Positions 1,887 to 6,994 of a stretch of 10,102 nucleotides of DNA are shown in pieces (positions within the stretch are counted from its first letter, which is position 1; every line of letters begins with the position of its first letter). The DNA lies in contig CAJHIR010000037.1 in NCBI GenBank assembly GCA_905067535.1, positions 1 through 10,102 of the forward strand. Reading direction: 5' to 3'. The position numbers were made by a program, and so were the translations under genes. Origin of the DNA: Candidatus Argoarchaeum ethanivorans (lineage in GTDB: Archaea; Halobacteriota; Methanosarcinia; Methanosarcinales; EX4572-44). The notes beneath the pieces were generated by a model. That model saw only the letters and a program-made list of their open reading frames with translations, had not been told where the DNA came from and ran no database searches.

Positions 1887-2182
1887 TGGGAAAAAGGCTG
1901 ATTACTTGTGTTGGTTAAATAACAGCAGTTTCCGTTGTGACCGTAAACGCATGCAGTCAAAGGATCGATTCCTTATACGTTCGTCAACATTTATGTACAA
2001 TTGCTCGATCAAGAAACTGCACAACTTTGTTGTGCAGAGTTATCAATAACCTTTGATTCTCGATTGCGTCAGCAATCGAGTGCAAGAGAATATTGTGCGT
2101 TTTATACTTTCCTACACGTTAAAAAAATAGAGTAAATCCAGATAGTGTCGCTAAATTCGAAATTTAAAGGGTGGTGTTTTGC
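1887..2182. other. Non-coding spacer with inverted repeats
   Basis: About 300 bases without a supportable gene. It holds, left to right, a weak inverted repeat AAGGA/TCCTT (1960-1974), the two-hairpin element (2017-2081), a TATA-like TTTATACT (2101-2108), and the ribosome binding site GGGTGGTG (about 2169-2176) of the transposase remnant. No T-rich run typical of an archaeal terminator follows the NMD3 gene closely, and no complete tRNA or other standard RNA gene could be folded by eye. Confidence 0.6.
2017..2081 (-). repeat. Two-hairpin dispersed element, copy 1 (minus orientation)
   Basis: Two perfect 9-bp inverted repeats lie in tandem. CTGCACAAC (2017-2025) pairs with GTTGTGCAG (2029-2037) over a 3-base loop, and CTCGATTGC (2059-2067) pairs with GCAATCGAG (2072-2080) over GTCA. 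Between them is a small stem GTTAT/ATAAC (2039-2050). Read on the minus strand, the order is hairpin ACTCGATTGC..., then GAGAAT, then TCTGCA...TGCAG, which matches the element at 6637-6687. The internal spacer is longer here (carrying the extra small stem) than in the other copy. No T-run follows the stems, so they do not look like an intrinsic terminator. Confidence 0.8.
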
Positions 2183-5566: not shown

Positions 5567-5572
5567 TTCTTG

Positions 5573-6604
5573 ATGTGCGGACTATTCAAAACTCCAGCTT
5601 ACGCATACATAACTGCCCGTGTGCGTGCACGAAAGAGAAAACTCATCCCTAAAGAGACATATCCCAAGCTATTAAACATGCAACTACCAGAGATCATCCG
5701 ATTTATTGAAGAATCAGAATACAAGAAGGATGTTGATGAACTTTCAGCTAAATTCAAGTCAATAGACCTTCTTGAGCATGCTCTTGGCAGGAGTCTTGGA
5801 GCTTCCTATAGAAAATTAATGGACATTTCCCGGGGAGAGGTCAATTATCTGATAACAGAATATATGCGTAGATGGGATGTCTGGAATATCAAAACCGTAC
5901 TCCGTGGTAAATACTACGGTGCTTCGGAAGAGGAGATCTTAAACTGTGTGGTATCAGCAGGTGAACTGCATTATCCGGAGCTTGAATTAATGGCAAAAAA
6001 GGAGAGCATTGGGGATGTAATCGCTTCCCTTGAACATACCCCATATTATCCGGTACTTACAAAATATGAGGGAGGAATGCTTAACAAAATAGAAGATGAG
6101 CTTGACAGGTTATCTTATACACGATTGCTTGATGCTGTTGGCGGCTCACCTGGGGAAAAATTCTTCTTAAAATTCATTCAAACAGAGATAGACATAAAGA
6201 ATTTAAAGATGCTGTTCAGACTGAAAAAGGCTGGAGTTGAGCGTGAATATGTTCAAAACATCTTAATCACCGGTGGTCTGGAGTTAAAAGAATCCGATTT
6301 AACCAGATTGTCAGGATTGTCCTTTTCCGAACTTGTTCACTCACTGGACGGTTATTCATACTGGCGGTCAATATCTGATGTGGTCAGTGATCAGATGACC
6401 ACGTTAATGGACGTGGATACGAAATTGGATGCTCACCTGATGAATTATGCATCACAAATTTCTCACTATTATCCTTTGTCTATACTTCCAGTGCTTGATT
6501 ATATCCTGAGCAAAAAGATTGAAGTTGACAATTTGCGGGTTATTGCACGAGGAAAAGAGCTAAAATTGGCTGATGAGATCATACGAAGCCATCTGGTGAT
6601 GTAG
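5573..6604 (+). CDS. ahaC: A-type ATP synthase subunit C (central stalk to ring adaptor)
   Basis: A 343-residue subunit of the V-ATPase d-type family, the funnel-shaped socket on the K ring that receives the central axle (D/F). The N-terminal AYAYITARVRARKRKLIPKE, IRFIEESEYKKDVDEL and YMRRWDVWNIKTVLRGK are characteristic, as is the repeated IDIKNLKMLFRLKKAG and the final VDNLRVIARGKELKL. ATG 5573 is preferred because GGTGAT (5562-5567) is 5 bases upstream and overlaps the ahaE stop; an in-frame TTG at 5570 would add one residue. It ends in TAG (6602-6604). Unlike the other junctions, a 93-base gap follows before ahaF. Confidence 0.94.
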   Translation: MCGLFKTPAYAYITARVRARKRKLIPKETYPKLLNMQLPEIIRFIEESEYKKDVDELSAKFKSIDLLEHALGRSLGASYRKLMDISRGEVNYLITEYMRRWDVWNIKTVLRGKYYGASEEEILNCVVSAGELHYPELELMAKKESIGDVIASLEHTPYYPVLTKYEGGMLNKIEDELDRLSYTRLLDAVGGSPGEKFFLKFIQTEIDIKNLKMLFRLKKAGVEREYVQNILITGGLELKESDLTRLSGLSFSELVHSLDGYSYWRSISDVVSDQMTTLMDVDTKLDAHLMNYASQISHYYPLSILPVLDYILSKKIEVDNLRVIARGKELKLADEIIRSHLVM

Positions 6605-6606
6605 CA

Positions 6607-6696
6607 ATGGAATTATCACCACTCGATTGCTTCACAACTCGATTACTGCGTAATCGAGAATTATTTCTGCAAAGCGCAGCTTTGCAGGTGATCTAA
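6607..6696 (+). CDS. Possible 29-codon mini-ORF ahead of ahaF
   Basis: Begins ATG GAA TTA at 6607 with GGTGAT (6595-6600) at a 6-base spacer, overlaps nothing after the ahaC TAG, and runs to TAA at 6694-6696, one base before the ahaF ATG. It encodes a 29-residue peptide starting MELSPLDCF and ending SAALQVI. Its first three codons equal those of ahaF. It has a better initiation context than several true genes in the operon and ends where translational coupling to ahaF would be possible. Most of it is made of the hairpin element, so the peptide itself may have no function. No relative is recognised. Confidence 0.3.
6620..6687 (+). repeat. Two-hairpin dispersed element, copy 2 (plus orientation) with extra partial copy
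   Basis: CTCGATTAC (6638-6646) pairs with GTAATCGAG (6650-6658) over loop TGC. CTGCAAAGC (6667-6675) pairs with GCTTTGCAG (6679-6687) over GCA. Both are perfect 9-bp stems. The order ACTCGATT-RC...GYAATCGAGAAT then TCTGCA...TGCAG is the same as in the minus-strand copy at 2017-2081, with a shorter internal spacer. CACTCGATTGCT at 6620-6631 exactly equals the left end of the other copy, so the left arm is partly duplicated here. The last two bases of the second stem (6686-6687) are the first two bases of the AGGTGAT ribosome binding site of ahaF. Confidence 0.85.
6686..6692 (+). promoter_or_regulatory. ahaF ribosome binding site partly inside a hairpin
   Basis: AGGTGAT fits the archaeal 16S anti-Shine-Dalgarno and lies 5 bases before the ahaF ATG. 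Its first AG belongs to the 3' arm of the CTGCAAAGC/GCTTTGCAG hairpin, so folding of the messenger could modulate ribosome access; the effect is inferred. Confidence 0.75.
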
Positions 6697-6697
6697 T

Positions 6698-6994
6698 ATG
6701 GAATTAGCAGTGGTTGGACAGAGTGAATTCACTCTTGGATTCAGACTTGCAGGAGTTAAAAAAGTGTATGATATAACAGATGATAATTTAATTGAGATAG
6801 TGCAAAACACTATGCATAATCCGGAAGTTGGAATCATTGTAATGCATAATGATGACCTTCTCAGGCTTCCAGCACAACTCATGGCGGAACTCAATGAATC
6901 AGTTGAGCCAACTGTAGTTGCAATTGGCGGAAAAGGTGAAAGTAACTTAAGAGAAAAAATAAAACAATCAGTAGGTGTTGATCTGTGGAAATAA
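6698..6994 (+). CDS. ahaF: A-type ATP synthase subunit F (central stalk)
   Basis: A 98-residue central-stalk subunit that binds the axle subunit D and turns with it, and can regulate the head. The Rossmann-like fold is visible: [26 protein letters not shown] at the start, [14 protein letters not shown] in the middle and [13 protein letters not shown] before a helical tail. Length is usual for archaeal F. The ATG has an AGGTGAT site 5 bases upstream. Its TAA stop (6992-6994) lies inside ahaA, a 10-base overlap, so the two are probably translationally coupled. The upstream sequence contains a duplicate of its own start region and a hairpin element. Confidence 0.95.

Follow-up and report, generated by a model that had tools for sequence, protein, structure and literature searches.

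Why does a paired-hairpin element occur twice in one short stretch of archaeal chromosome, with stems that differ between the copies and are nevertheless perfectly paired in both? A first-pass annotation took the matched differences as a sign of selection or of a copying process that preserves the fold, and its leading readings were a dispersed REP- or MITE-like element and a structured RNA. The window (the whole stretch of DNA that was analyzed, 10,102 nt) carries genes for adenylosuccinate synthetase, an NMD3 protein, and the A-type ATP synthase operon; its DNA has 93% identity to a contig of Candidatus Ethanoperedens thermophilum (L016). We compared it with six genomes that are 56–94% complete, four from the genus (G001–G004) and two from a sister genus (G005 and G006). 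G002 (56% complete; G002–G004 span 56–78%) matches the window region at 94–98% in aligned pieces and at 98% overall, and G001 matches it at 95%. Genus stretches were chosen for matches to hairpin H1 or to the window, which biases their hairpin density but does not fix loop type. A second sample consisted of 200 kb of evenly spaced stretches from each of G001 and the sister genome G005.

Results

Paired Hairpins at Two Sites in the Window

Perfect hairpins with 9-bp stems lie at positions 2017–2037, 2059–2080, 6638–6658, and 6667–6687, giving the window four stems of at least 9 bp against a mean of 0.1 in Markov shuffles of the same sequence (20 draws). The reported paired-hairpin element, present twice (2017–2080 and 6638–6687) with four perfect 9-bp stems, was therefore borne out, as was the claim that every stem difference is two-sided: pair 8 of H1 is G:C in one copy and A:T in the other, pair 6 of H2 is C:G against A:T, and pair 8 of H2 is A:T against G:C. 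The loops also differ between the copies (GTCA and TTT against TGC and GCA). The arms of H1 and H2 are different, and each hairpin folds alone, with no pairing between the two. The unit is two outward-pointing hairpins around one spacer, so that either of its strands ends in a hairpin. Three features described below, the flanking direct repeats, the loop rule, and the polarity, go beyond what the first-pass annotation anticipated.

The downstream unit stands between the genes for ATP synthase subunits C (atpC, 5570–6604, plus strand, PF01992) and F (atpF, 6698–6994, plus strand, PF01990). On its left lies a target-site duplication copy, GGTGATGTAGCAATGGAATTA (6595–6615, plus strand), which contains the atpC stop codon and is present as a single copy in G005 (L151) and G006 (L150). 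H1 follows with a CTCGATTAC stem (6638–6658, minus strand; minus-strand loop GCA), G001 and G002 having this hairpin at the corresponding position; then come a recurrent family spacer, AATTATTT (6659–6666), and hairpin H4 with a CTGCAAAGC stem (6667–6687, plus strand; plus-strand loop GCA). The 3′ foot of H4 touches the right target copy, GGTGATCTAATATGGAATTA (6687–6706, plus strand), which includes both the atpF start codon and a GGTGAT resembling a Shine-Dalgarno sequence, and shares base 6687 with the hairpin foot. The extent first given for this element, 6620–6687, holds for the hairpins; its start also covers an incomplete additional left arm of H1, ACTCGATTGCTTCACA (6621–6636, minus strand), which is missing here in G001 and G002 and is a 16-nt insertion of the window relative to G002.

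At the upstream site, H2 has a CTGCACAAC stem (2017–2037, minus strand) and an exceptional loop, AAA on the minus strand and TTT on the plus strand; its G001 orthologue has the loop GAA, and G002 lacks the hairpin. The spacer AGTTATCAATAACCTTTGATT (2038–2058) separates it from H1 with a CTCGATTGC stem (2059–2080, plus strand; plus-strand loop GTCA). A remnant left arm of H1, CTCGATCA, lies at 2004–2011 (plus strand), and its G002 counterpart, CTCGATTGA, stands directly against a loop and right arm. At this site, 55 nt are present in the window and G001 and missing from G002, and the flanks of 2017–2080 carry no target repeat.

Two further features lie nearby. A 70-aa frame at 2171–2383 has no Pfam match and is largely retained in G001; in G002, an additional ∼190 nt break it up. 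At 2340–2390, an AT-rich palindrome (2348–2367) and its flank resemble, by eye, the left end of an intact IS200-type element in L096 (∼1920–1980 there), and this intergenic DNA may carry an IS200 remnant.

A Dispersed Hairpin Family of One Genus

The expectation of many copies in the genome held. H1 (CTCGATT..AATCGAG) occurs 67 times in G001, where a reversed-pattern control gave 0, and 42, 38, and 41 times in the other three genus genomes; both sister genomes have 0, and 9 of 54 more distant genomes have one or two matches. The commonest form of H2, CTGCACAACGAAGTTGTGCAG, turned up in just 4 of the 185 order genomes, those of the genus, with 85, 58, 49, and 50 copies in G001–G004. The commonest hairpin had no match among the 181 order genomes outside the genus and none in viral contigs, which led us to reject viral carriage. 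The genus carries several stem families side by side (CTCGATTGC, CTCGATTAC, CTTGATTRC, CTCGACTAC, CTGCACAAC, and CTGCAAAGC), along with additional 8-bp stem types (CTGCATAC/CCGCACAC). In the evenly spaced stretches, G001 had 19 perfect stems of at least 9 bp, 16 of them with G..A loops, and sister G005 had 10, of which 2 had G..A loops, neither C-G closed; the G005 stretches also held three 8-bp stems with C-G closed G..A loops and no flank repeat.

These copy numbers and the extragenic position of the palindromes support the first-pass reading of a dispersed, REP-like element. The window units belong to a dispersed, mobile hairpin family of one genus near Candidatus Ethanoperedens, in a group of archaea related closely to known ethane oxidizers. 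Among the open-access literature matches listed, there is no published account of these repeats in Ethanoperedens or Argoarchaeum.

Insertion with Target Duplication

The hairpin arrays insert with duplication of their target. Direct repeats scoring at least 13 flanked 30 of 204 arrays; in the controls, the figures were 3 of 1,011 when flanks were paired across arrays and 1 of 357 when they were displaced. When the evenly spaced and a few more stretches were included, 34 of 222 arrays were flanked by repeats, of 13–58 bp, and 188 had no clear target repeat. For the 28 arrays scoring at least 15, repeat length ran from 15 to 58 bp with a median of 29 bp, three orthologous arrays having been removed first.

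Hairpin-free, single-copy alleles were found in relatives at nine sites in all. Seven came from the 19 sites with a comparable orthologous locus, and in these, the repeat length agreed to within one base: 58 bp (empty in G004), 34 bp (G001 and G002), 35 bp (G004 and G005), 38 bp (G003), 34 bp (G004), 25 bp (G004), and 36 bp (G004, with 37 bases in G005 and G006). The remaining 12 of the 19 were filled, rearranged, or ambiguous in the relatives compared. Among these 12 is the eighth site (L109), whose 17-bp repeat occurs once in G002, with one substitution; in L016, the site is occupied by a different array that has its own repeat. The ninth is the atpC/atpF junction, where the two genes are in direct contact in G005 and G006 with nothing between them. 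In the genus, two copies of ∼20 bp enclose the hairpins there; the atpC stop and the atpF start lie within these copies, which are identical at 20 of 20 positions in G003 (L148). The unit at window positions 6616–6686 is an insertion at this junction. G003 carries two versions of the junction on separate contigs (L148 and L152), one of them equal to L016 over the stretch compared, possibly because strains are mixed in the assembly.

At two other junctions, a different insert occupies the site in another species (the L130 site in G001 and G004 and the L116 site in G003), and at three loci (L302, L300, and L301), units of repeat plus element later grew in tandem. The repeats at most sites contain the stop codon of the upstream gene, the start codon of the downstream gene, or both, and the adjoining genes thus stay whole: because the target is duplicated on insertion, entry at a tight gene junction can spare both. 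A simple frame test found no gene at 5 of the 34 sites, and one array (L185) is located within an open reading frame. We rejected targeting confined to start codons because the repeats contain upstream stops as well as downstream starts; this content fits the survival of harmless insertions. By eye, the 24 oriented sites showed neither junction microhomology nor a target consensus. Among the duplications in the evenly spaced G001 stretches, 10 of 12 were without a family hairpin. The hairpin arrays are mosaics and not regular repeat/spacer CRISPR arrays; the only regular array among the duplications listed, L234 of sister G005, is CRISPR-like, with repeats of ∼39–40 bp.

Apparent Compensation and Decay in Place

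The matched stem differences had been attributed to selection on pairing or to fold-preserving copying. We tabulated pairs by anchoring on the left arm and loop and reading the right arm, leaving out occurrences with more than three mismatches, which gave 171 of 257 H1 and 206 of 243 H2 occurrences. Pair 8 of H1 was G:C in 84, A:T in 75, mixed in 11, and T:A in 1, and pair 3 was C:G in 110, T:A in 49, and mixed in 12; H2 pairs 6 and 8 behaved in the same way as H1 pairs 8 and 3. Pair 4 of H2 was C:G in 138, T:G in 36, C:A in 29, and T:A in 3, so that one-sided changes outnumbered two-sided changes by 65 to 3. This excess indicates that copies decay in place after insertion. The stem families are internally consistent, single copies decay one side at a time, and most of the “compensatory” differences set one coexisting hairpin family apart from another.

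Orthologues of the window hairpins point the same way in having broken pairs. Next to atpF, the window and G002 share a hairpin of the CTGCAAAGC type, and the place is taken by an H2-type hairpin in G001 (with an A.G mismatch) and in L016 (with a T.G pair); this is module replacement or rearrangement rather than stepwise compensation. Simple compensation in place was rejected on the one-sided decay at H2 pair 4 together with the broken pairs in orthologues. Of the two proposed causes, copying survives, since intact hairpins do get copied; selection that keeps the two window copies paired does not, the differing pairs marking families that coexist in dozens of copies. In H2 and H4 stems, pair 4, which lies in a TGCA context, takes most of the decay (T:G in 36 and C:A in 29 of 206), as expected for C-to-T or G-to-A change, perhaps at a methylated cytosine or a deamination hot spot.

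A DNA-Type Loop Rule

Stems vary, and the loops obey a rule. Among perfect stems of at least 9 bp in the genus stretches, 247 of 272 had a G..A loop on one strand, and 245 were C-G closed; in a control set of 79 other archaeal loci, G..A loops closed 2 of 42 perfect stems. The loops are GAA, GCA, GGA, GTA, and many of the form GNNA. The 27 perfect stems with other loops include 15 family members, the hairpin at 2017–2037 of the window among them. In stems of at least 8 bp, 40 of 66 tetraloops were outside the GNRA class, which makes the rule one of DNA rather than RNA. A structured RNA, one of the two readings first proposed, is accordingly unlikely, the window also having no match to any Rfam family at gathering score.

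A paper on aptamers describes DNA mini-hairpins as nuclease resistant when the loop is GNA or GNNA and the stem has two or more G-C pairs, and such a mini-hairpin at the 3′ end as shielding a strand from 3′-exonucleases (PMC4686876). At least two G-C pairs adjoin the loop in the CTCGATTGC and CTGCAAAGC stems; stems of the CTGCACAAC and CTCGATTAC types have A:T in second place. Strand-dependent folding energy was rejected as the basis of the strand rule, since predicted DNA energies gave the GNA strand no advantage in most pairs: for three of the four window hairpins, the two strands were equal, and for one, the GNNA strand was better by 0.4 kcal/mol. A further hairpin type with a CCGYATCGC-like stem occurs in L243 (∼1440, loop AAA/TTT), in L239 (∼1814), and in L267, and has other loops elsewhere. 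These hairpins, too, are flanked by long direct repeats or occupy an insertion junction already known, and L243 and L239 are, by eye, repeat-flanked insertions of this other type with an AAA/TTT loop.

Insertion Polarity and Possible Mechanisms

All 16 single-hairpin insertions (15 of them independent) have one polarity: the strand that carries the G..A loop has the hairpin at its 3′ end. The 3′ tail beyond it is at most 2 nt in 14 of the 16 and 6 and 15 nt in the other two; the 5′ leader is ragged, from 11 to 48 nt. Over all 34 repeat-flanked arrays, the 3′ foot of a hairpin lay within 6 nt of a repeat copy in 29, and a 5′ foot lay that close in 1. Nine of the 16 leaders matched other arrays better than shuffled leaders did, by at least 3 letters (three shuffles each), and no leader source was found for the other 7, counting L167, whose best match is its own orthologue. 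By eye, the start of several leaders falls within the loop or at the foot of the hairpin that precedes them upstream.

We favor, as moderately probable, an account in which single strands ending in a 3′ hairpin are captured at staggered breaks or displaced flaps, by an enzymology that we infer. The mobile piece would be a strand of ∼33–150 nt, with a 3′ end formed by an 8- to 9-bp hairpin, C-G closed and with a GNA or GNNA loop, and a 5′ side formed by a ragged leader cut from an older hairpin array. By analogy with the aptamer mini-hairpins, the hairpin would shield the 3′ end of the DNA from exonucleases; hairpin-ended strands would outlast others and then be captured, and fill-in of the stagger would leave the 13- to 58-bp target duplication. 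Capture of protected strands would account for the 3′ hairpin, the ragged 5′ end, the staggered target, and the loop rule with no need for a dedicated gene. Selection would act on shape and loop and not on stem sequence, so that unrelated stems would spread in parallel and come to look compensated. Against this account, none of the six genomes (56–94% complete) has a match to Ku, which leaves the joining step without a named enzyme; Ku end joining itself was rejected on this result. Several observations given above and below also weigh against it: the 188 of 222 arrays, and the 2017–2080 site, with no clear target repeat; the 15 family stems with other loops; the two repeat-flanked insertions of another hairpin type; the folding energies; the duplications without a family hairpin; the clustering of hairpins upstream of Y1 genes; and the few C-G closed GNA hairpins of sister G005. 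A more tentative possibility is that the family is transposase-free selfish DNA that spreads because its 3′ end escapes digestion: any sequence able to fold into a GNA/GNNA mini-hairpin would persist in short single-stranded form, to be captured by host repair at breaks or flaps. Selection would then be on fold stability alone, again with unrelated hairpins spreading in parallel; the neighborhood of Y1 genes described below argues against so purely enzyme-free an account.

The strictness of the loop and polarity rules resembles recognition by a protein. A genus-specific and so far unrecognized transposase or endonuclease might recognize the GNA/GNNA hairpin and join it to widely staggered target cuts. 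The confinement of H1 and H2 to the genus, bar the few distant H1 matches, is in keeping with this, and IS1549 and IS1634 are examples of a transposase leaving long, variable repeats, of 8–514 bp (PMC2266710). We nevertheless consider such an enzyme unlikely: matches to DDE_Tnp_1 peak in sister G005, which lacks H1 and H2 (59 against 35 in G001), and unrelated stems that are alike in shape only, with one end ragged, are unlike terminal-repeat recognition.

Template switching would also dispense with a transposase. A nascent strand would copy an array, close by or far away, its 3′ end would fold off as a hairpin, and it would be ligated to a displaced 5′ flap that carries the second target copy; the 3′ hairpin would mark the end point of copying, and the duplication would have the length of the flap. 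The arrays do change by gains and losses of short direct repeats, and units of target plus element grow in tandem at the three loci named above. The 24 oriented sites, however, showed by eye no evident junction microhomology, and we judge this route fairly improbable.

A precise 3′ end, a ragged 5′ end, and a variable target duplication are the classical signature of retroposition, and all three are present here. Small hairpin-ended RNAs could be copied by target-primed reverse transcription, as in SINEs, starting at the 3′ hairpin, stopping early, and using staggered nicks; by eye, the ends of some leaders coincide with the next hairpin or fall inside it, which would suit a halt in copying there. 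We give this route little credence, since a reverse transcriptase domain (PF00078) occurs in one of the six genomes, G001, and in none of the other three genus genomes (56–78% complete), since the loops are of the DNA type (40 of 66 tetraloops are not GNRA), and since decaying stems hardly favor T:G over C:A (36 against 29). The sole reverse transcriptase domain of the six genomes lies in a 416-aa open frame (L218, G001:C4:106604–107293), perhaps, at a guess, the protein of a group II intron.

High-copy extragenic palindromes, often in outward-pointing pairs, would suit REP- or REPIN-type elements moved by a RAYT or IS200/IS605 (Y1) transposase, a partner that the first-pass annotation had suggested seeking. 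Matches to the Y1 domain (PF01797) occur in all six genomes, but full-length, stop-free ones number 5 in G003, 1 each in G001 and G004, and 0 in G002 (56% complete), G005, and G006, where the sister genomes have only partial or broken copies; full-length Y1 is thus present in three of the four genus genomes and neither sister genome. Of the 13 Y1 loci in the genus, 5 had a family hairpin no more than 300 bp away, compared with 342 of 4,000 random G001 segments that had one within 500 bp, an excess that may be smaller than it looks because the random segments were unmatched for adjoining intergenic DNA. All five neighboring hairpins are on the 5′ side of the Y1 gene, a clustering that points to some IS200-type tie. 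The arrays at these loci (L315, L317, L321, L322, and L323) lie 120–300 bp upstream of the Y1 genes and have differing flanks. In sister G005, two C-G closed mini-hairpins with GNA loops, one of them H1-like, stand beside a broken Y1 gene (L331, G005:C1:1158800–1163000), the H1-like one with no flank repeat, which also speaks for a Y1 connection. Y1 transposition is not known to leave a target duplication, and the 13- to 58-bp duplications with their single-copy empty alleles therefore speak against it. By eye, the sequence from hairpin to gene is not common to the five loci. No GTAG/CGTC tag stands at the hairpin foot among the flanks listed, and H1 does not pair with H2. The presence and position of the Y1 genes speak for the suggested partner, and the long duplications and differing flanks speak against it. 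Some link to Y1 genes may exist, although we regard REP- or REPIN-type movement by such a transposase as the least probable of these routes.

Discussion

In how it appears to work, the hairpin family comes closest to REPINs and to the double-hairpin elements of mitochondria, which are likewise short mosaics of palindromes that carry no gene. REPs, BIMEs, and REPINs, which are associated with RAYTs, are likewise short, high-copy extragenic palindromes that occur in opposite-orientation pairs and in mosaics or tandem clusters, some of them near Y1 genes. The two halves of a REPIN pair with each other (PMC3116915), whereas the genus hairpins fold singly. REP-type elements also carry a GTAG/CGTC tag; among the flanks listed, the genus hairpins have none, H1 being preceded by AACT or AATT and H2 by a TATTT-like sequence, and their insertion, unlike that of REPs, BIMEs, and REPINs, duplicates 13–58 bp of target. 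MITEs, the other dispersed element first considered, differ in having common terminal inverted repeats, whereas the genus elements have unrelated-sequence hairpins at one end and a ragged end at the other, and in having a target duplication of fixed length, whereas here it varies over 15–58 bp.

The double-hairpin elements of Allomyces mitochondria and the GC clusters of yeast are also noncoding mobile DNA, palindromic or with two hairpins, and they too merge and shuffle. The Allomyces elements are reported to have no flanking duplications (PMC2800124) and the yeast clusters to have the target dinucleotide AG (PMC4478555); the genus hairpins differ in their long target duplication and in having no AG-target character. 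The portions of the literature descriptions compared mention neither a GNA loop rule nor a 3′ polarity for these elements. SINEs and 5′-truncated retroposons share the precise 3′ end, ragged 5′ end, and long variable target duplication, but the genus insert is ∼33–150 nt with DNA-type loops, and a reverse transcriptase domain is present in one of the six genomes. IS1549 and IS1634 resemble the family in their long variable duplications, reported without a mechanistic model (PMC2266710), and differ in being 1.5–2 kb long with terminal inverted repeats and a DDE transposase, the genus elements being alike at their ends only in hairpin shape. Small tandem duplications by fill-in of break ends, described for mammalian cells with CST, Shieldin, and NHEJ (PMC8355091), also duplicate a short stretch of target by filling break ends; in the genus, however, the joint holds a hairpin, and none of the six genomes has a Ku match. 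Among the open-access literature matches listed, no described element was found to match this mode of insertion.

Apparent compensatory changes in short repeats can thus arise without RNA function, when one hairpin family replaces another. If the insertion signature holds, the family is gene-free mobile DNA of a few dozen bases that has no common sequence ends and, by duplicating its target, is able to enter overlapping gene junctions harmlessly. The empty alleles in near relatives make the insertion mechanism directly testable. The family links the chemistry of nuclease-resistant GNA/GNNA DNA hairpins, used in aptamer stabilization, to natural genome evolution, and if the capture of 3′-hairpin-ended strands is the right account, it would be a new class of mobile DNA, beyond short mobile palindromes.
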